Assembly: GCF_900636765.1 (NCBI RefSeq) | Contig: NZ_LR134313.1 | Span: 2,505,390 to 2,569,389 of the forward strand | Reading direction: 5' to 3' | Length of the DNA stretch: 64,000 bases | Source of the DNA: Neisseria canis | GTDB taxonomy: Bacteria; Pseudomonadota; Gammaproteobacteria; Burkholderiales; Neisseriaceae | In this document: positions 1,434 to 50,892 of the stretch, piece after piece | How the letters are laid out: every line of letters begins with the position of its first letter | How positions within the stretch are numbered: the stretch's first letter is position 1 | Notes under the pieces: generated by a model | Seen by the model: only the letters and a program-made list of their open reading frames with translations | Databases searched by the model: none | Told to the model about the DNA's origin: nothing | Translations under genes and position numbers: made by a program

Positions 1434-2252
1434 ATGTTGATCGCATTACTCATCATGCTGCGCGAAGGCATAGAGGCAGCATTGATTGTCGGCATCGTGG
1501 CCGGCTTCCTCAAGCAATCGGGATACAGCCATCTGATGCCCAAAGTTTGGTTGGGTGTCGCACTGGCCTCCCTCATCTGCATCGTTACGGGATTGGCCAT
1601 TTACAAAACCACAGGCGAAATTCCGCAGAAGCAGCAAGAATTTGTGGTGGGCGTTATCGGTTTGGTTGCCGTAGGCATGCTGACCTATATGATTCTCTGG
1701 ATGCAGAAAGCATCCCGCTCCATCAAACAGCAATTGCAAAGCTCAGTTCAGGCCGCGCTCAACCGGGGCAGCAGGCAAGGCTGGGCTTTGGTGTTGATGG
1801 CTTTTCTCGCCGTTATCCGCGAAGGTTTGGAAAGCGTGTTTTTCCTGATTGCCGTGTTCCAGCAAAGCCCCACGCCTTGGATGCCTGCCGGCGCCGTGCT
1901 CGGCCTGCTGATTGCCGTTGTGATAGGCTGGCTGATTTATCAAGGCGGCGTGCGGATTAATCTGGCCAAATTCTTCCGTTGGACGGGCGTGTTCCTGATT
2001 TTTGTGGCGGCCGGTTTGTTTGCGGGTGCCTTCCGCGCTTTGCACGAAGCCGGCGTTTGGAATATCGGCCAAACCGTTATCGCCGACTTCTCATCCGTGC
2101 TGCATGAAGACAGCCCGTTGGGCGTGCTGCTCGGCGGCTTTTTCGGCTACACCGATCATCCCGTTACCAGCGATGCAGTGCTCTACTTCGCTTATCTTAT
2201 TCCCGTTTTATTCTTGTTTTTTAAAAGCAGCCGACCCGCTGCGAAACCATAA
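1434..2252 (+). CDS. efeU: Ferrous iron permease EfeU (FTR1 family)
   Basis: This 272-residue integral membrane protein has about seven hydrophobic segments. It carries the two R-E-G-x-E motifs that mark FTR1/EfeU iron permeases: REGIEA at residues 10-15 in the first helix and REGLES near residue 125. In the Efe system EfeU is the inner-membrane channel that takes iron delivered by EfeO and EfeB. It is the first gene of an efeU-efeO-(insert)-efeB arrangement on the plus strand, and its stop lies 13 bases before the efeO start, so the two are probably co-transcribed. The ATG at 1434 places the first REGIE motif in the usual position for the family. Confidence 0.93.
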
Positions 2253-2265
2253 TGGAGAGAGAAAA

Positions 2266-3441
2266 ATGAAGAAATCCAATCTAACCGCTTTATCTGTGTT
2301 AATCGCTCTGGGCCTGTCTGCCTGCCAACCGCCCGAAGCGGAAAAAACCGCCGCGCCCGCTTCCGGCGCATCTGGTGCGGCACAAGCCAAAAATGCCGAT
2401 GGTTCGTTCAACATTGCCGTTAACGACAGCGCCTGCGACCCGATGGAGCTTACCGTTCCCAGCGGCGAAACCGTGTTCAACATCAAAAACAACAGCGGCC
2501 GCAAGCTCGAATGGGAAATCCTCAAAGGCGTGATGGTGGTGGACGAGCGTGAAAACATCGCCCCCGGCCTGTCCGACAAAATGACCGTTACCCTCCTGCC
2601 CGGCGAATACGAAATGGCCTGCGGCCTGCTTACCAACCCGCGCGGCAAACTGACCGTAACCGACAGCGGCTTCAAACCTGCCGACAACACCGCCAACTTG
2701 GAAAAACTCGCCCAACCACTGGCCGATTACAAAACTTATGTTCAAGCCGAAGCCGCCGAACTCGTGAAGAAAACCGCCGCTTTCGTTGCCGATGTGAAAG
2801 CGGGCAAACTTGAAGATGCCAAAGCCAAATTCGCCGACACCCGTACCCATTACGAACGCATCGAACCGATTGCCGAATTGTTCAACGAGCTCGACCCCGC
2901 CATCGACGCGCGTGAAGACGATTTCAAAAAAGGCCCGAAAGACCCGGAATTTACCGGTTTCCACCGCATCGAATACGCTTTATGGGTTGAAAAATCCACC
3001 GACGGCGTGAAAGAAGTGGCCGACAAGCTGGAAGCCGACGTGAAGAAACTGCAGGCCGAAATCGACTCACTTAACTTCCCGCCGAGCAAAGTTGTGGGCG
3101 GTGCTGCCGTATTGATTGAAGAAGTGGCCGGCAGCAAAATCAGCGGCGAAGAAGACCGCTACAGCCACACCGATTTGAGCGACTTCAACGCCAACGTGGA
3201 AGGTGCGCAAAAAATCGTTGAGCTTTTCCGCCCGATGATTGCCGAGAAAAACAAAGGGCTGCTGGATAAAACCGATGCCAACTTCAAGCAGGTAAACGAC
3301 ATTTTGGCCAAATACAAAACCGTCAACGGCTTTGAAACCTACGACAAACTTTCCGAAGCCGACCGCAAAACCCTGCAAGCGCCCATCAACGCATTGGCCG
3401 AAGACTTGGCTCAATTGCGCGGCACACTGGGCTTGAATTGA
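2266..3441 (+). CDS. efeO: Periplasmic iron-binding lipoprotein EfeO
   Basis: The 391-residue product begins with a lipoprotein signal ([20 protein letters not shown], Cys20 as the lipidated residue). A cupredoxin-like domain follows at about residues 45-130, containing SACDPMEL and the YEMACGL segment with a conserved Cys. From about 150 to the end comes an imelysin/M75-type helical domain with the HxxE metal motif in [10 protein letters not shown]. This cupredoxin plus M75 layout is that of EfeO, which binds iron in the periplasm and hands it to EfeU. The open frame extends upstream into efeU, but the ATG at 2266 is preceded by a good GGAGAGA site and starts the signal peptide. A lipid anchor is a departure from the soluble E. 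coli protein. Confidence 0.92.
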
Positions 3442-3495
3442 TGCCTGTCTGAAGCTAAAGTTTGAACTTTTTTAAAACTATACCTTCCTAATTTA

Positions 3496-3513
3496 AGTAT
3501 GTTCATACATACT
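3496..3513. promoter_or_regulatory. Short palindrome upstream of the bacteriocin-like gene
   Basis: The arms AGTATGT and ACATACT flank a TCAT loop inside a very AT-rich leader, about 50 bases before the bacteriocin-like start. It may be an operator or a weak hairpin. No other copy was noticed. Confidence 0.35.
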
Positions 3514-3564
3514 AACTTAATTTACTTTTAATTTTAACTTTAAATAAGGAGTATAAAATAAAAA

Positions 3565-3834
3565 ATGAAAACTTTAACCATTCAAGAATTACAATATGTT
3601 AATGGTGCTTTTGGACCGATTGGAGCTGCAATAGGCGGAATTGGAGGTGCTGCTGGATACTTGTTAAACCAACAGCTGAGTGGAAGTAAATTTTCCCCTA
3701 CCTCATTAGCATGGGCTACAGGAGCTGGTGCAACAGCAGGAGCAACAACAGGCCCCGTAGGCGTTGTATGGGGTTTCAATGGCGCTTTAGCTGGAGGCAT
3801 GGTTACAGGAGTTGCCTCAAGGTATGGTAAATAA
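3565..3834 (+). CDS. Bacteriocin-like peptide with double-glycine-type leader
   Basis: This is an 89-residue peptide. The first 15 residues (MKTLTIQELQYVNGA) fit the double-glycine-type leader of class II bacteriocins and microcins: Glu at -8, Leu at -7, Val at -4, Gly at -2, with Ala replacing Gly at -1. The predicted mature part (about 74 residues, from FGPIG) is rich in Gly and Ala with repeated GxxxG spacing and is hydrophobic, as in pore-forming bacteriocins. A strong AAGGAG site precedes ATG. The gene is AT-rich unlike its neighbours, and its end overlaps a small membrane protein gene, the usual toxin-immunity layout. No peptidase-containing exporter is in the window. The family call is by motif only. 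A non-toxic small Gly-rich peptide remains possible. Confidence 0.65.
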   Translation: MKTLTIQELQYVNGAFGPIGAAIGGIGGAAGYLLNQQLSGSKFSPTSLAWATGAGATAGATTGPVGVVWGFNGALAGGMVTGVASRYGK

Positions 3835-4060
3835 GCCATTAGCAATCAAGATTTTTCTCTCTTTTATATTTATAACAATCGCTTTTTTTATTAGAAACCT
3901 ATATGTTTCTGCTGGCGTAGCAGACAGCTCTTTTTTGATAGCTATATTTGCAATCATTTTTACATGGTCTGTGTCTCTTAAAGAGAGAAAAAAATTATTT
4001 GCATTTGGAATAGTTTTATTTTTAATAGCTTACTTAAGTCTTTATTTAGAAATAAAATAA
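3824..4060 (+). CDS. Small membrane protein, candidate bacteriocin immunity protein
   Basis: This 78-residue protein starts at ATG 3824, overlapping the last 11 bases of the bacteriocin-like gene in another frame, which suggests coupled translation. Three hydrophobic segments are visible: about 8-26, 35-54 and 60-75, separated by RN and KERKK charged turns. The ATG four codons upstream in the same frame is less attractive, because 3824 sits next to the upstream stop. I recognise no family. Size, topology, AT-rich composition and coupling to the preceding gene fit bacteriocin immunity proteins. Function is inferred from context alone. Confidence 0.6.
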   Translation: MVNKPLAIKIFLSFIFITIAFFIRNLYVSAGVADSSFLIAIFAIIFTWSVSLKERKKLFAFGIVLFLIAYLSLYLEIK

Positions 4061-4067
4061 TAATGAT

Positions 4068-4099
4068 GCCTGTCTGAATTTATCTTCAGTCAGGTATTA
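4068..4099. terminator. Degenerate DUS hairpin between immunity gene and efeB
   Basis: An intact left arm ATGCCTGTCTGAA is followed by a decayed right arm (TTCAGTCAGGTAT). The stem has two mismatches, so it is weaker than the others and may allow read-through into efeB. Confidence 0.5.
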
Positions 4100-4116
4100 T
4101 TTAAAGGATACACATT

Positions 4117-5388
4117 ATGTCAGATGCTGGAAGTCCTCTCCAACCTAAAAAACGCACTCTATTGAAAACCGCTTTAGCAGCGGGCGCCACAGGAATAGCA
4201 GCCGCAGGAGGTTTTATTTGGGGCGAACAAAAGAGTAAAAACAAAACCGAAACCTTATATCGCCAGCATTCTAGTGAACGCTACGACTGCTACGGCACCC
4301 ATCAGGCAGGCATTACCACGCCGCACCAACCTTTCGCCATCATGTGCGCCTTCGACATCACAGCCAACGGCGCATCTCAGCTTATCAACTTCTTCCGCGT
4401 ACTTACCACCCGCATCGAGTTCCTCACGCAAGGCGGAGAATTGCAGGACGGCGATGCCAAGCTGCCGCCTTCAGGCAGCGGTATCTTAGGCAAAAAAGTG
4501 CCGAGCGACGGCCTCACCGTTACCGTATCCGTCGGCGACAGTCTGTTTGACAAGCGGTTCGGCCTGGAAGCCAAAAAGCCCAAGCGCCTGCAAGAAATGA
4601 AACGCTTCCCCAACGACAAACTGGCCGCCGAATGGTGCGACGGCGACATCAGCCTTCAAATCTGCGCCCTCAGCCCCGAAACCTGCCAAAACGCCCTGCG
4701 CGACATCATCAAAAACACCGCCCAATTTGCCGTAGTCCGCTGGAGCATTGACGGCTTCCTGCCCAAAACCACGCCCGGTTCCGCTCCCCGCAACCTGCTC
4801 GGCTTTCACGACGGTTCGGCCAACCCCGACGTTTCCAACCTCAAAACCGCCGATGCTGTGTTATGGACAGGCGTTGCCCCCAACAGCCTCGACGAACCGG
4901 CATGGGCCAAAAACGGCACCTATCAGGCCGTGCGCATTATCCGCCACTTCGTAGAATTCTGGGACAGAACGCCCCTGCAGGAACAGGAAGCCATATTCGG
5001 GCGCGAAAAATACAGCGGCGCGCCATTAGGCATGAAAAAAGAACAGGATACGCCCGACTATGCCAAAGACCCCGAAGGCAAAACCATCCCCCAAGACAGC
5101 CATATGCGCCTAGCTAATCCCCGCGATCCCGAGTTTATGAAAAAACACCAACTTTTCCGCCGTCCGTTTAACTATTCGCGCGGCCTGGCCAAATCGGGTC
5201 AACTGGACGTGGGTTTGGTGTTTATCTGCTATCAGGCGAACCTTGACGACGGGTTTATCTTCGTGCAGAAACTGCTCGACCTCGAGCCGCTGGAAGAATA
5301 CATCAGCCCTTTCGGCGGCGGCTATTTCTTTACCCTGCCCGGCGTGAAGAAAGGCGAATTTATCGGTCAGAGTCTGATGTTGGGCTAA
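4117..5388 (+). CDS. efeB: Deferrochelatase/peroxidase EfeB (Dyp-type)
   Basis: The 423-residue product has an N-terminal export signal with a lysine-arginine variant of the twin-arginine motif (KKRTLLK at residues 11-17) before a hydrophobic Ala/Gly stretch, so Tat export with the folded haem is likely. The Dyp-peroxidase signature is present as LLGFHDGSANPD at about residues 228-239 (GxxDG, distal Asp). HFVEFWDRTPLQEQEAIFGR follows near 280, with the probable proximal haem-ligand His. EfeB is the periplasmic haem peroxidase of the EfeUOB system, and the family is reported to oxidise ferrous iron or release iron from haem. It is separated from efeO by the ~600 bp bacteriocin-like insert. A DUS hairpin follows the stop. 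Confidence 0.92.
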   Translation: MSDAGSPLQPKKRTLLKTALAAGATGIAAAGGFIWGEQKSKNKTETLYRQHSSERYDCYGTHQAGITTPHQPFAIMCAFDITANGASQLINFFRVLTTRIEFLTQGGELQDGDAKLPPSGSGILGKKVPSDGLTVTVSVGDSLFDKRFGLEAKKPKRLQEMKRFPNDKLAAEWCDGDISLQICALSPETCQNALRDIIKNTAQFAVVRWSIDGFLPKTTPGSAPRNLLGFHDGSANPDVSNLKTADAVLWTGVAPNSLDEPAWAKNGTYQAVRIIRHFVEFWDRTPLQEQEAIFGREKYSGAPLGMKKEQDTPDYAKDPEGKTIPQDSHMRLANPRDPEFMKKHQLFRRPFNYSRGLAKSGQLDVGLVFICYQANLDDGFIFVQKLLDLEPLEEYISPFGGGYFFTLPGVKKGEFIGQSLMLG

Positions 5389-7235: not shown

Positions 7236-10200
7236 ATGACACATTACAAACTCAATATTACTCATAACGGCCAAACCGAATCTATTACGCTTCCCTCAGA
7301 CCAACCCCTTTCCCTTCCCGCCCAACCGGATACCGTTTACCAAATTTTCGACGAACAAGGCAACCTGATCGCCCAGCCCGAAGTGCAGCTGGTTAACGAA
7401 GATTTATGGGTACACCTCGGTTCAAACGCCGAGGGCACACCCGATCTGATTCTGCAAAATTACCAAAATATCTACCCGACACCGAATGCCGGCCAGTTGG
7501 GCGCCATCGGCGTCGTATCGGTTGAAGCAGCCGCACCCGTGGCAGAACAAGTGGCCATCGGCGGCACACTCACCAGTTTTCAGACAGGCCTGATCGGCTT
7601 AGGCGTTGCCACAACAGCAATCGCAGGCATTGCTATTGCCAACAGCGGCAAAGACTCCAACCCTAAAAAACAGCCTGAAGTTAAACAGCCTGAAGTTAAA
7701 CAGCCTGAAGTTAAACAACCCGAGGTTCAACAACCCGAGGTTAAACAACCCGAGGTTAAACAACCCGAGGTTAAACAACCCGAGGTTAAACAACCTGAAG
7801 TTAAACAACCCGAGGTTCAACAACCTGAAGTTAAACAACCTGAAGTTAAACAACCTGAAGTTAAACAACCTGAAGTTAAACAGCCTGAAGTTAAACAGCC
7901 TGAAGTTAAACAACCTGAGGTTAAACAACCTGAGGTTCAACAACCTGAGGTTCAACAACCTGAGGTTCAACAACCTGAGGTTCAACAACCTGAGGTTCAA
8001 CAACCTGAGGTTCAACAACCTGAAGTTAAACAACCTGAAGTTAAACAACCTGAAGTTAAACAGCCTGAAGTTAAACAGCCTGAAGTTAAACAGCCTGAAG
8101 TTAAACAGCCTGAAGTTAAACAGCCTGAAGTTAAACAGCCTGAAGTTAAACAGCCTGAAGTTAAACAGCCTGAAGTTAAACAGCCTGAAGTTAAACAGCC
8201 TGAAGTTAAACAGCCTGAAGTTAAACAGCCTGAGGTTCAACAACCTGAGGTTCGACAACCTGAGGTTCAACAACCTGAGGTTCAACAACCTGAGGTTCAA
8301 CAACCTGAGGTTCAACAACCTAGTTCTGCAACAGTTACAATCAACCCTATTTCGCATCAAGATGTGGTCAATGCCCAATCTGCCCAAGGAACTGTTTTAA
8401 TTTCCGGCATAATCAACAGCGACCAAGACATTAGCGATGCCGATGTTATAGTTTACTTAAACGGCAAAGCCTACCCCGCCGTCGTTAATGCTGCTACTTT
8501 CAGCGTGGAAATAAACGGCAGTGAATTTGCTAATGCAAATACCGTCAGCGCAATCGCCACAATTCGGAACCAATCGGGCAAAAGCATCGAAGTCCTGTCT
8601 GAGCGCGCATACAGTTATGATACTGAAGCACCCGAAGCGTTCATTAGAATGAACAGAATGTCAGACAACAGCACCATCAATATTGCCGCCAAAAAAGATA
8701 CATTCACTCTTTCAGGCCCCCTTAAAATTGGTGAAGACAGTATTAGAGAAAGCGTTACCGTCAAAATCAACGGAAAATCTTATCCTGCAGAAATTCATGG
8801 CCAAACTTGGTCTTTCAAAACTACCGGTAAAACACTTGCTTATGCCGAAGGCGCCCAAACCCTACAAGTTATTCTGCAAACGGAAGATTTGGCAGGCAAT
8901 ACCAATACTGCCTCAATGGAATACGTTTATTTGGTAGATACCGTAATTGAGCAGCCTGTTGTTACGCTCAACCCTATTACAAAAGACAACATCATCAACG
9001 CAGAAGAAACCCAATCCAATATTCTGGTTTCCGGCCAAGCTGAGCATGTGAATGAAGGCGATACGGTTACACTGACAGCCGGCACATATGAGACCACAAC
9101 CACGGTTAAAAACGGTCGATTCAGCCTCGAAATCGCAGGCTCCGTATTGGCGTCGGCCGAAAGCATCAGCGCGCGTGTCGACACCGAGGACGAAGCCGGC
9201 AATACCGCCTCGGCCGTAACCACGCAAAACTACACGTCGGACACCGAAATCGACACGCCTGTCATCACGTTTAACGCCATCGCCGAAGACGACATCATCA
9301 ATCTGGCCGAATCCCAAACCGAAAACACCATTCTTTCCGGCACAGTCGAACACGCAAAAGAAAATGACGAAATCATTATCACGGTCGGCGAAGCCGTTTA
9401 TAAAGGTGTGGTTTCAGACAGGCAATTTGCCGTTGCCGTCAGCACCAAAGCCCTGCTTAACCACGGCAAAGTGACCGCCAGCGTTACCACTACCGATGAA
9501 GCGCTCAACAGCGCGACCGGTCATGCGGAACGCGCCTACTCAATCGATACGGAATACACGCCTACCATCAGCCTGAACGCAATCGCAGGCGATAATGTGC
9601 TCAACCTTGCGGAATCCGAAAAAACCGTTACCGTTACCGGCACCGTTACCGATGTTGCCGACGATGAAGACATCATTGTTTCGTGCGGCTGCGAAAGCTG
9701 CGGCAGCGTGAAATGGATCGACATTCTTACCAAGGTGAAAAACGGCGGTTTCTCCGTTGATTTCGAAGGCACCCAATTATCAAAAAGCGGCTACACCCTG
9801 GTGAAAGCCAGCGTTACCTCCCAAGATGCTGCCGGCAATACGGCCACCGCCGAAACCTCGCAAAGTTTCACCAAAGATTTAACTGCGCCTGAAGTGGCCG
9901 TAAACATTAACGAAATCGCCGGCGACGATGTACTTACCAAAGCCAAACAAGAGCAAACCCACCATTCCGTCAGCGGTGCCATCAACGGCCTGCAAAACGG
10001 TGAAACGGTTAATCAGGTTCTCGTTCAGGTAGGCAATCAAAAATACAAGGCGGTCGTTACCGATAATACCTACGCTGCCGACATTCCTTCTTCGGAATTG
10101 GCCGCAGCAAACCGCGTTGATGTAAGCGCAACCGTAACCGATGCCGCAGGCAACAGCAGCACGGCGGAAAACAGCCGCGCCTATAAAGTGGGCAAGCCAT

Positions 10201-13200
10201 TACCCGTGCTGACGCTCGATATGGTTGCCGAAGACAATTTCATCAACAAAACCGAATCCGATAAAGGCAGCTTTATTTTGTCCGGTTCGGTAGAAAACGT
10301 AGAAAACGGCACGGAAGTTACGCTCCAATCCGGCTCTAATGAACTGACCGCGCAAATAGACAACGGCAAATTCAGCATTACTGCCGACCGTGCATTCTTA
10401 GGACTGGCCAACAATATAAACAATGCCGTGAAAACACTTGTCGCGCGTATTACCGTGCCGGATGATTACGGCATAAACCAAACCTACACGGCCAGTCAAG
10501 ACTATATTATCGACTTAAATAACAATACAGCCATTACTATTTCCCCCCTTACTGATGACAACATCCTAAACGCTGCCGAGATGGAGCGCCCCTATGTTAC
10601 TGTTAGCGGTAAAGTGACCGACGGAGCCGCAGGCAACCTGGTTACAATCAAAATCGGTAAAACAACCTACCAAGCCGAAATCCAGGCCGACGGTTCATAC
10701 AGCGTAGATGCGGAAGTTGCACAGATCATACCCAACGGAAGAGAAGGCAAATACGGTATTTCTGCCAGCGTCGAACGTGTGGATGCAGCGGGTAACCGGG
10801 GCAATGGCGAAGCAACCTTTACCCGGACCTTCTCTGTCGACAAATCCGCACCCAAAGGACGGGTGGTGTTTGACCCCATTACCGGCGACAATATAATTAA
10901 CCAAAACGAAGCCGCCCGACCGACTTTGCGTATTACAGGCAAAGTAAACGGCTTACAGGAAGGAGATGACGTTACCTCAGTAACCATCAATGTCGGCAAC
11001 AATCAATACACGGCCCAAACAGCCGGCTCTTCTTTCAATGTCGATATTCCTGCCGACGTATTGTCTGCCAACAACCAAGTCAGAGGCACAGCAGAATTGA
11101 AAGATGCCGGCGGTTCCACATCTTCTGCAGCAGAAGGCACACAAAGCTACGCCTATCAAACCAATCCGCCAACGGCCGATATTACCGTAACAGGCATCAA
11201 CGGAGGCAAGCCTTTAAACATCCGAAGCCTGTCTGAAAACATTTTGCTGACCGGTTCGCTGGTGTTGGGCGATACCGTTGCCCGAGGCACGGAAAAAGTA
11301 AATATCCACATTAACGGCGCAGATTATGCGGCGCAAGTTTCCAACGATACTTGGACGTTAACCCTGCCTGCCGTAACTTTGGCAAAAACCGACGGCATCC
11401 ATAACATCACTGCTTCCGTAACCGTAGCCGACGAATATGGCAACACAGGCGGCGACAGCACAGTTCACTCTTACCAAGTGGATACGGCCGCCCCCGCTCC
11501 TTCCATCACGCTGGACGCTTTAAACAATAACAACGTGCTCGAACAAGACGCCCAAGGCCAAATCGTGCTCGCAGGCCGTGTGGGCGGCAATTTCAAAGAA
11601 AACGACACCATCGTGCTAACTGTAAACGGCGTCAAGGAACAAACCACTGTCGACAGCACCGGCGCATTCAGCATCACGGTTGACGCAGCCCGGTTAACCG
11701 GCGCAGAAAAACCTGTGATTACCGCCGCCGTTACAACCGCCGATGACGCAGGCAACAGCGCTTCCGCACAAACCGCCTTGGCATACAGCGTGAAAAAAGG
11801 CGACATCAATATCCGATTGGATGTGATTACCGGAGATGATTTGATCAACGTTACCGAAGCCAAGCAAGAAATTACCATTTCCGGCTCGGTTTCCGGCAGC
11901 GCCGCTAGAGAAAATCAAACGGTTGAATTGTTGATTAATGGGAAAACCATTCAAGCACAGGTACAGAAAAATTTAAGCTTCAGCACCACCGTTTCCGCAA
12001 AAGAGCTGATTGCCGACTCCGGTTATGTCATTAAAGCAAGCGTTTCAGACGGACAGGAGGTCAACGCTGTAACTTCGCGCAGCTACGAAGTGGCGCCTGA
12101 AGCCGCCGCGTCAATCAACATCACCGGCATCGACACAGATTTCAATGTCGATGTGGCCCAAGCTTTCTCCAACACCCGGATTGAAGGCGTGATCGAGCTT
12201 AACGGTGCATTTGCCAAAGGCATGAACAGCGAACGCATGCGCCAGATTACCGTGAATATCGGTGAGAAAACTTACACGGCCGGTGTCAAAGCAGACCGCA
12301 GTTTCTTCTTGGATATCCCCACCAAAGAGCTTGCCAAGCTCAACGGAAAAACACTCAGCTTCAAAGTGGAAGCCGACCCGCAATTGTTTGATGTGGAGCA
12401 AACCGGCAACAATACCTACCGCATCCACAATTTGGCACGCTTCGAGGAAGTTCAGGTCAAAGAAATCGTGTTTAAGAGTCCTTACATCACCAAAGATCCG
12501 ACAAATAATGACTACATCGTGTCCAATGTAAAAGAGCCGGCTGTAACCGTCAGCGGTTCCGTAGGCGGCACAGCCAAAGCCGGTGACACGATTATGCTGG
12601 AAACAGGCGGCAAAATTTATCAAACCACCGTAGACTCCAGCGGCACCCGTTTTTCGGTTGACATATCGGCCACGGATTTGGCTGCCGATGAAAACCGTAC
12701 CATCAAAGCCGTTTTACATACAACCGACTCATCCGGCCAAGCTATCAGCATCAGTAACAGCGGGCGCTATGCCGTATTGAATCAAGTGGACGGAAAATTT
12801 TCAGACAGGCATGCCAAACCTGTCTCGGTAAACAGCGACCACACTTTACCTGATTACAATTTCCCTTATTTCATACAAAAAACAGGCAATATCAATGGAA
12901 AAAGCTATAACATCCCTTTAGGCGGCACTCCTGACGGCCCTACTGTATTGAAATATCATTTCCTCACACTGGACGAAATCAGCACTCTGCCCGAAAACCA
13001 TAACCGGTATATCGACAGAGCAACCATGACCAGCTACTCAGCAGAACTTCAAGACATCGTACGCAACGCCTATAAAGAAATCAGTGCGGTTACCAATATC
13101 GAATTCGTCGAAGTCGGCAGCATGCTCGAAGCCAACACAAAATATTACATGGGCAATCTTATGTCAGGTTTTGAAGACGCTTCTGCCGTTGCGGCCAGCG

Positions 13201-14498
13201 GCGGTTTGATTGCTTGGAACAGCCGCCACAATTATATGTCATGGGGAAAAGAATTCCTGCACTATACCGTGTTACACGAAGTTACCCATACCTTGGGTAT
13301 GACACACACATCAAGAGGTTTTACCGGCGATTATGCGAATGAAGAAAATATTGAATTTTCAAATATGTCGTATAAAGCCTATATAAACAACGATTTATTT
13401 CTAAACAAAGGCCAATTGCGCACCTACGATTTAGCTTACCTCCACTACACGGTAGGCATGAACAAGACCGTTCGTACGGGCAACGACATCTATACATTCA
13501 AAAACTACAATATGTACAGCCAAGATTCCGACCGCTATATCTGGGATGCCGGCGGGGTGGATACTTTCGATGCCTCGCAGGAGAAAGCCGGGGTACACGT
13601 CAACCTCACGCCGGGTTCATGGATTTACGTTGGCGACAACCTATCCAAAACGTTCAGCGTGCAAAACGCCGCCACACACGATATGCGCAGCTACTTCAAG
13701 CTTCCCGAAGATGCCTCAATCATCGGCAATTCCAGTGCGAAAGTCACGCTAAACACCTACACCGAAGGACAGGCATTTATCGGATACGGCACGCAAATCG
13801 AAAACCTAATCGGCTCAGCGCATGATGATATATTGACCGGTAACAGTGCCGACAACAATATCTACGGCGGTTCAGGCAACGATACTATCCGGGGCGGTAC
13901 AGGCAACGACTACCTCGACGGCGGCGAAGGTGAAGACACCTTAATCGGCGGCGAAGGCAACGACAGCTACATTATCGACAGTGCGTCAGACACCATTCAA
14001 GAAGCTCAGGATCAAGGGGAAGACCATGTATACAGCAGCATCAGCCATACCTTGGGCGGACATCTGGAAAACCTGACCTTGATCGGCAGCAACAGCATCA
14101 ACGGCACAGGTAACGCACAAGCCAACGTTTTACGCGGCAACGGAGCGGACAATGAGCTCAAAGGCATGGAAGGCGACGACCGCATCATCGGCGGAGGCGG
14201 TAACGACACCCTAACCGGCGGCGACGGTAACGACACATTCGTGTTCGACACCGTTTTAGACGGCAGCGTAACCACCATCAAGGACTTCCTGCAAGGCAAT
14301 GACACCATCGAATTGTCGTCTGCCGTTTTCGGCAACCCCAAAACCACCGTTTCGGAGTTTGGCGATTACATCAGCTACCAGTCCCAAACCGGTTACCTGT
14401 ATTACGACAGCGACGGTAAAGGCAAGGCCGACGGCATCCACTTTGCAACGCTCAGTCCGAACTTGACCATCAACGAAAGCCACTTTGATATTGTGTAA
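7236..14498 (+). CDS. Giant RTX adhesin with PEVKQ repeats, Ig-like stalk and serralysin-type protease
   Basis: The product is 2420 residues with no Sec signal. Residues 1-145 resemble the N-terminal module of BapA-like RTX adhesins. Residues 147-361 are 43 tandem pentapeptides PEV(K/Q/R)Q. Residues ~367-1850 hold about 14 Ig-like domains, each opening with a pattern like DN-x-I-N-x-A-E and a xxSG/xxTG strand; one carries a CGCESC motif at 817-822. Residues ~1860-2190 form a metzincin protease domain with [11 protein letters not shown] (His2014, Glu2015, His2018, His2024) and a Met-turn NMSY (Met2044), as in serralysins. GGxGNDxL calcium-binding repeats lie near 2195-2250 and 2305-2340. An uncleaved C-terminal type I secretion signal is expected. 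No type I exporter is in the window. Preceded by 200 AT-rich bases. Confidence 0.85.
7674..8318 (+). repeat. 15-bp tandem repeat, 43 units, encoding PEVKQ
   Basis: Exactly 645 bases make 43 units of 15 bp in frame inside the RTX gene. Units fall into synonymous or near-synonymous blocks (CCTGAAGTTAAACAG, CCTGAGGTTCAACAA, CCCGAGGTTAAACAA types). From 8061 to 8225 eleven consecutive units are identical, which suggests recent expansion. Gain or loss of units keeps the frame, so it changes length, not expression. Confidence 0.95.
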
Positions 14499-49881: not shown

Positions 49882-50892
49882 ATGACACAAACCGTTACCC
49901 TTTCCGGAAGCTCAATCAGCTTTTCCGTTGATGAAAACGAATCCATCTTAAGCGCGGCCAAACGCCAAAGCCTCAATCTGCCCCATTCATGCCAGAACGG
50001 TATCTGCGGCCAGTGTAAAGCCGAAGTTATGAGCGGCAACGCCGTTCAGGGCGGGCACGCAGAGCAGGCTTTAACCGCAGAGGAACAGGCCGCCGGCAAA
50101 ATTCTGATGTGCTGCTCAACCGCGCAAAGCGATTTGGTGTTGAATATTCCCGGCTTCGATGCAGACACCCCGCCCGTACGCACCCTGCCGGCGCGCGTAA
50201 ATTCGGTAGACTGTATCCACGATGTCGCCATTGTCACGCTTGCTTTGCCCAAAGCGCCGCCTTTTTCATTCTACTCCGGCCAATACATTGATATTCTTCT
50301 GAAAAACAACCACATAAGAAGCTACTCCATTGCCAGCCCTGCCAGCCGGCCCGATACGTTGGAGCTGCATATCCGCCGCCGTGAAAACGGTTTGTTTTCA
50401 AATATGCTGTTTGGTGAATCCCCCGTGGTAAAAACCGGAGCCGTTATGCGGATACGCGCGCCTTTAGGCAGCTTTACCCTGCGCAAAAACAGCTCGGCGC
50501 CTTTACTCTTATTGGCTACAGGCACAGGCTTTGCGCCGATTAAAAGCATCCTGCAACACTTGGTCGAACACGATAGCAGGCGCGATGTTCATTTTTACTG
50601 GGGCGCCAGATATGAAGCAGACATCTACCAAGCCGATGTTGCCGCCGAATTGGTAAGCCGCCTGCCCAACGGCCGTTTTACACAAGTATTATCGCGCCCG
50701 CACGACGGTTGGCAGGGAAAAACCGGCTATATCCAGCACCATATTTTGGCAGACTACCCTGATTTGTCGGCTCATGAAGTGTATGCCTGCGGCTCTCCCG
50801 CTATGATTGAAGCCGTGCAACAGCAATGCGAAACCCGGCAAAACCTGCCGCGCGAATCTTTTTTCTCTGATGCTTTTTCGCCATCCCATTAA
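49882..50892 (+). CDS. Ferredoxin-NAD(P)H reductase, CDP-6-deoxyglucoseen reductase-like
   Basis: This 336-residue electron-transfer flavoprotein has an N-terminal plant-type [2Fe-2S] ferredoxin domain with CQNGICGQC near residues 37-45 and a fourth Cys in LMCCS near 75. An FAD-binding domain with IRSYSIASPA near 145 (RxYS motif) follows. Then comes a NAD(P)H domain with LLLLATGTGFAPIKSIL near 210 and a YACGSPAMIEAV segment. The layout matches AscD/E3 and phenol-hydroxylase reductases. In Neisseria such genes are annotated as CDP-6-deoxy-delta-3,4-glucoseen reductase, but no dideoxysugar genes are nearby, so the partner is unknown. Confidence 0.85.
   Translation: MTQTVTLSGSSISFSVDENESILSAAKRQSLNLPHSCQNGICGQCKAEVMSGNAVQGGHAEQALTAEEQAAGKILMCCSTAQSDLVLNIPGFDADTPPVRTLPARVNSVDCIHDVAIVTLALPKAPPFSFYSGQYIDILLKNNHIRSYSIASPASRPDTLELHIRRRENGLFSNMLFGESPVVKTGAVMRIRAPLGSFTLRKNSSAPLLLLATGTGFAPIKSILQHLVEHDSRRDVHFYWGARYEADIYQADVAAELVSRLPNGRFTQVLSRPHDGWQGKTGYIQHHILADYPDLSAHEVYACGSPAMIEAVQQQCETRQNLPRESFFSDAFSPSH

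Follow-up and report, generated by a model that had tools for sequence, protein, structure and literature searches.

The efeUOB operon of Neisseria canis raises the question of what two small genes are doing between efeO and efeB, and how they came to lie there. We analyzed a 64,000-nt stretch of the genome (contig NZ_LR134313.1, positions 2,505,390 to 2,569,389; hereafter the window), in which a preliminary description had placed a bacteriocin-like peptide gene and an overlapping gene for a small membrane protein of putative immunity type between these two genes. Both open reading frames were found at this site. They encode 89 and 78 aa and overlap by 11 nt, with the ATG of the membrane protein gene lying inside the end of the peptide gene. 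The pair probably represents an exporter-less microcin-immunity cassette with a product that would be exported in trans, acquired by homologous recombination and most likely through natural transformation. The features of the locus are listed in Table 1. In total, efeB extends over 4117-5388 and scores above the cut-off of its NCBIfam equivalog model.

Table 1. Features of the efeUOB locus in the window, with the observation on which each assignment is based.
Feature	Position	Strand	Basis or remark
efeU	1434-2252	+	NCBIfam equivalog model above cut-off
efeO, upstream neighbor	2266..3441 (start about 2266, codon chosen by hand)	+	NCBIfam EfeO equivalog above cut-off
DNA uptake sequence 1 (TGCCTGTCTGAA)	3442..3453	+	Adjoins efeO stop codon; last bases identical to relatives
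Foreign tract	3454..4276	.	No blastn match to G040 or G025 efe loci; both edges sharp
Precursor peptide, 89 aa	3565..3834	+	Leader 3565-3609; mature part from 3610
Membrane protein, 78 aa, three-helix, probable immunity protein	3824..4060	+	Homologues, model, dN/dS
Hairpin on DNA uptake sequence 2 (4067-4078)	4062..4101	+	-19.4 kcal/mol, z -4.8; possible partial terminator
efeB 5' end, signal peptide region, foreign type	4117..4276	+	N-terminus 23/50 identical to G040
efeB remainder, native type	4277..5388	+	94.5% identity to G040 over 1112 bp

The precursor peptide starts with MKTLTIQELQYVNGA, a double-glycine-type leader that ends in Gly-Ala. The leader residues named in the preliminary description (E at -8, L at -7, V at -4 and G-A at -2/-1) are all in place, and the strict leader pattern is matched. 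This pattern is found in a single ORF of the window and in none of 20 first-order Markov simulations of the window, while a looser pattern adds one window ORF at 50509 that is distant and unconvincing. An NCBIfam search returned TIGR03949 (lactobin A/cerein 7B) with 21.6 bits against a cut-off of 21.5, a likeness limited to residues 2-31, i.e., the leader and the first mature residues. The class IIb (two-peptide) label was rejected because the cassette encodes no second double-glycine peptide as a partner. The mature part of 74 aa, which begins with FGPIG, has a pI of 10.0, a net charge of +3, no cysteine, a Gly+Ala content of 43% and eight GxxxG motifs. It is modeled by AlphaFold2 as two helices with low confidence (pLDDT 61.5).

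The protein search gave eight matches including the peptide itself, with the other seven being 63-88% identical and the named sources being N. dentiae (a homologue at 80%), N. weixii and N. yangbaofengii. Close relatives occur in four out of 83 Neisseriaceae genomes (the window genome G000, G039, G042, and G043), and a pattern scan of species genomes revealed remoter ones (40-53% identical) in Burkholderia guangdongensis, Thiopseudomonas denitrificans and a Pseudomonas. In the homologue alignment, 42 of the 74 mature columns are invariant versus four of the 15 leader columns. The dN/dS between homologues ranges from 0.13 to 0.28, with dS near saturation in the two most distant pairs and only two changes in one pair. 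Given these homologues and ratios, the pair does not consist of chance ORFs, and both members are, as judged from their substitutions, genes under selection. The peptide has no match at E ≤ 0.01 in phage and plasmid collections and none in PHROGs, and a phage or plasmid origin was dropped on the former result. Inspection by eye of 14 stretches upstream of peptide genes (the one of L022 being cut inside the gene) gave no convincing common regulatory motif.

The 78-aa protein is probably the immunity protein, as suggested by its architecture and linkage. AlphaFold2 predicts three helices (residues 4-30, 36-49 and 56-77) with a pLDDT of 93.5, based on four sequences and with the five models ranging from 67 to 93.5. 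The sequence search returned two proteins only (its own and one with 64% identity), and three out of 46 genus genomes gave a match, namely the window genome itself and two others at 44%. None of the Pfam, NCBIfam or PADLOC models scored above its cut-off, no solved structure matched the fold with an E-value below 0.001, and there was no match to known anti-phage defence.

A small membrane protein gene is located at the 3' end of the peptide gene in all six close loci, specifically the window, L018 and L020 (both from G042, N. weixii), L023 and L024 (both from G043) and L022 (from G039); the contexts of homologues P0002-P0006 and P0010 fall outside this count. The neighboring membrane proteins share 23-64% identity with that of the window and are more divergent than the peptides; the one in L022 has only two clear hydrophobic stretches. 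Frameshifts or a stop interrupt the peptide gene in three of the six loci (L018, L020, L024), whereas the frame of the adjoining membrane protein remains open in all three, as expected if immunity outlasts the toxin. Of these, L020 and L024 correspond to the same orthologous site, sampled in two species. In L018 the break consists of one frameshift, which may be a sequencing error, because an intact near-identical protein (P0007) exists and the assembly is rated 85% complete. Between L018 and L023 the membrane protein gene has a dN/dS of 0.13 (12 synonymous and six non-synonymous changes), and the peptide gene, up to the break, one of 0.19.

The preliminary description called efeO and efeB normally adjacent, which holds, though the length of their spacer varies. 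Among 30 loci sampled from the 42 matches listed, efeO was located by its C-terminal motif in 27 (all but L049, L050, and L060), and the spacer of these 27 loci, window included, measures between 88 and 1294 bp. An ORF scan of the spacers longer than 200 bp indicated that at least two of the 27 loci besides the window seem to hold another gene. In L042 (G010) this is a methyltransferase gene at 2819-3469, assigned by a family test, and in L047 (G020) a lipoprotein-like ORF, judged by eye. The efeO-efeB spacer is thus a tolerant site. Further downstream in the window, positions 7236-14498 encode a protein of 2420 aa, probably type I secreted and adhesin-like, that carries RTX calcium-binding repeats as well as long QPEVKQPEV repeats.

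Comparison with an empty site delimits what has entered. The nearest relatives by EfeB, G040 (92%) and G025 (91%), have an efeO-efeB spacer of 261 bp that starts with the same 12-mer but lacks the pair. This 12-mer, TGCCTGTCTGAA, is in our reading the N. wadsworthii dialect of the DNA uptake sequence (DUS); it occurs 63 times in the window and 2095 times in the genome, versus no copy of a reversed control. By blastn, identity to G040 is 96.0% over 2901-3453, disappears, and resumes at 4277; the edges are the same against G025, with 93.3% on the left and 92.1% on the right. The left edge coincides with the end of DUS 1 and the right edge lies inside efeB. As a consequence EfeB is mosaic: its first 55 residues share 23 of 50 aligned positions with G040, and the remainder 364 of 368. 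The EfeB proteins of G040 and the more distant G029, taken as a comparison pair, share 32 of 52 N-terminal positions and 316 of 368 in the remainder. Among the 25 of 29 other loci with a usable EfeB N-terminus, the foreign start is closest to those of other clades (58-64% in L042, L041, L043, and L038), and no close donor was found in the genome set examined.

The mosaic is best read as a single homologous-recombination exchange, presumably from an unsampled relative, that also replaced the signal peptide region of efeB. Natural transformation is the likely vehicle given the DUS at the tract edge. The horizontal entry suspected from the outset is thereby upheld and refined, the incoming tract spanning 3454 to about 4276 and taking in the first part of efeB. 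The compositional argument originally made for it, that both genes are AT-rich and far below the flanking efe genes, stands for the membrane protein gene (26.2% GC, the lowest 0.4% of window intervals) but not for the peptide gene (45.9%, the 30th percentile), in which GC is low mainly at third positions (GC3 of 24% versus 65% in efeB). No recombinase-like ORF was seen by eye among the ORFs of the window. We rejected the idea that the two direct DUS repeats are insertion-site duplications, because the relatives with an empty site have DUS 1 as well and the window has 63 copies of this sequence.

The cassette itself encodes no exporter. The preliminary description made its proposal depend on a C39-peptidase ABC exporter elsewhere in the genome, and a single C39-peptidase protein was indeed found, a 697-aa ABC exporter at C1:102101-104191. 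It adjoins an HlyD-type protein, with an outer membrane efflux protein (OEP, TolC-like) nearby, and nine ORFs with strict double-glycine leaders lie in a 19-kb stretch around it. The leader of the window peptide shares between six and eight of 15 residues with each of eight distinct exporter-linked leaders. Assuming that the 2.57-Mb contig is circular, some 160 kb separate the exporter from the pair; as the genes are unlinked, we infer their partnership. Matches to the exporter at E ≤ 1e-60 (25 candidates scored per genome) occur in 15 out of 46 genus genomes, full-length and stop-free in 11 of the 15, while the remaining genomes have fragments, distant matches or a copy interrupted by a stop. 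Among the peptide-bearing genomes, the window genome has only the ABC exporter, G039 and G042 have only a C39 peptidase of the NapP type, and G043 has both. Both ABC-type peptide genes of G042, which lacks the ABC exporter, are broken in the assembly, with the reservations made above.

Several observations touch on the exporter and its surroundings. G040 carries the exporter at 99% identity without the pair (L079, L080), and the almost equally near G025 has no exporter match. A recent transfer of the exporter between the window genome and G040 was considered and dropped, because the native part of EfeB is equally close. In L027 (G028:C54) the end of a double-glycine-peptide and C39-exporter cluster is about 4 kb away from efeU, upstream of it and in the same orientation, and an exporter lies on the same contig as efeB at a distance of ~17 kb in G043 (C1) and ~31 kb in G011 (C16). 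Two tandem short ORFs with double-glycine leaders at L066 1501-1841 (G000:C1, about 1587377), far from the exporter, form a second orphan peptide locus in the window genome.

The core of the peptide also occurs with a different leader. In L022 (8758-9150), a peptide with a core 65% identical to that of the window lies in a nap-like island, between a gene for a C39 peptidase (Pfam, 84 bits) and a napF-like gene, the latter so labeled from its position and from a beta-barrel match just over the cut-off (29.2 bits against 28.7). A gene read by eye as hisS is located nearby, and the nap island of the gonococcus is reported to be flanked by a histidyl-tRNA synthetase gene (PMC11798529). In the L022 peptide, what looks like a Sec signal precedes a Gly-Ala site, a build found in two of ten napP loci scanned over 1.5 kb on each side (L022 and L073 of G043, from 561 onward). 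NapP-type C39 peptidases matching that of L022 are present in ten out of 46 genomes, with some copies broken. As ABC-type and Sec-like leaders precede a shared core, two export routes may be open to the same core.

This shared core is one reason to consider the peptide as a self-acting autolysis peptide like the Naps, or as a signaling peptide, with an action tuned by the membrane protein. The gonococcal Naps, the nearest Neisseria double-glycine peptides to have been studied, are reported to promote autolysis and to have no antibacterial activity against competitors (PMC11798529), and a pheromone role has been proposed for meningococcal double-glycine peptides (PMC2784325). We consider such a role unlikely for the window peptide. 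The window genome has no match to the NapP of L022 at E ≤ 1e-5, the mature core of 74 residues is longer than the 16-36 residues given for mature Naps (PMC11798529), and an overlapping, polymorphic membrane protein gene that survives beside broken peptide genes fits immunity better. That the peptide is a phage holin-like protein or an intracellular toxin-antitoxin component is highly improbable: the match to Phage_holin_3_3 (E 0.012, 16.2 bits) falls below the cut-off of 28.4, for which a holin identity was rejected, a profile match to hemolysin E is weak (E 0.14), the phage collections returned nothing, and the export leader is conserved.

The position of the pair raises the question of whether it acts as a bacteriocin under iron control, with transcription from the efe promoter linking killing to iron limitation, much as the preliminary description had considered. 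The pair lies on the same strand as efeUOB, and efeUOB of the meningococcus is reported to be Fur-regulated (PMC13431127). In the interval 3442-3565 ahead of the peptide gene, the promoter scan gave no consensus match on the + strand, which makes read-through from efe possible, and the hairpin preceding this gene is not clearly beyond chance (z -1.5). On the other hand, Fur-box scores do not exceed chance upstream of efeU, the pair and efeB (a crude test with a consensus). A strong hairpin separates the pair from efeB; absent from the output of the terminator scan, it may lower read-through into efeB. All five other close loci lie outside efe operons. Moreover, the place of the cassette need not be functional, because it entered by exchange. 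Nothing thus ties the pair to iron beyond its genomic place, and we regard this explanation as rather unlikely.

Under the microcin-immunity reading that we favor, the C39 domain of the unlinked ABC exporter would probably cleave the 89-aa precursor behind Gly-Ala, and the product would be released by this exporter together with the HlyD and TolC-like proteins that accompany it. The mature cationic, Gly/Ala-rich peptide would probably damage the membranes of relatives that lack the 78-aa protein, while the latter would protect the producer; this antibacterial activity we infer from sequence. The cassette would have come from another Neisseria by homologous recombination, in a tract from the DUS after efeO into efeB. 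In this way a single exchange could bring a weapon together with its protector into a core iron locus, the price being a rewritten signal peptide in the neighboring gene. It is possible, and we propose it tentatively, that Neisseria bacteriocins are exporter-less toxin-immunity cassettes that move on DUS into core-operon spacers, use a shared exporter in trans, leave immunity-only remnants and carry a leader-swapped core. If true, the nap autolysis system and microcins would be one modular family, and the scarcity of Neisseria bacteriocin structural genes near exporters would be explained. Peptide genes distant from the exporter, as here, would escape exporter-centered searches. The core shared with a nap-like-island peptide allows a direct test of whether Naps and microcins are one family.

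According to a 2022 review, no Neisseria bacteriocin has been characterized both genetically and biochemically, and for a proposed meningococcal bacteriocin the genes are unidentified with two secretion genes implicated (PMC9263626). Our literature search, which covered titles and the beginnings of abstracts with subscription journals mostly outside it, found neither a bacteriocin in an efe locus nor this peptide family, and it did not return efeO-efeB as a minimal-mobile-element site. Among the closest known systems is McbC of Moraxella catarrhalis with its overlapping, tested immunity gene mcbI (PMC2761928). Both systems come from Gram-negative bacteria, and both combine a double-glycine leader gene, overlapped by a small immunity-type gene without known relatives, with an ABC transporter and a membrane-fusion partner. 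The mcb genes, however, form one operon with mcbA and mcbB, whereas here the exporter is far off and iron genes flank the pair. Of the two systems, only Mcb has reported activity and immunity (PMC2761928), those of the window pair being predicted.

Within the genus, meningococcal C39 secretion units come with glycine-rich peptides that have GG or GA leaders, and the secretion genes are located in genomic islands, many of the minimal-mobile-element type (PMC2784325). The window peptide resembles them in its GG/GA leader and small, Gly-rich product, but the portion of that report drawn on here mentions neither an immunity partner nor the efe site. Neisseria minimal mobile elements are non-core genes swapped between conserved flanks by homologous recombination (PMC2784325). 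The window tract behaves alike in our comparison between species, with differing spacer contents, the same conserved flanks and homologous edges. The gonococcal nap island is likewise horizontally acquired and AT-rich and encodes double-glycine-type peptides with a C39 peptidase (PMC11798529), whereas the window peptide has an ABC-type leader, no Sec signal and no NapP match in its genome. The parts of the system are therefore of known kinds, recalling Mcb, the meningococcal GG/GA peptides, the nap island and minimal mobile elements; apparently new are the stand-alone cassette, its site, the use of an exporter predicted to act in trans, and the presence of the same core behind a different leader elsewhere.
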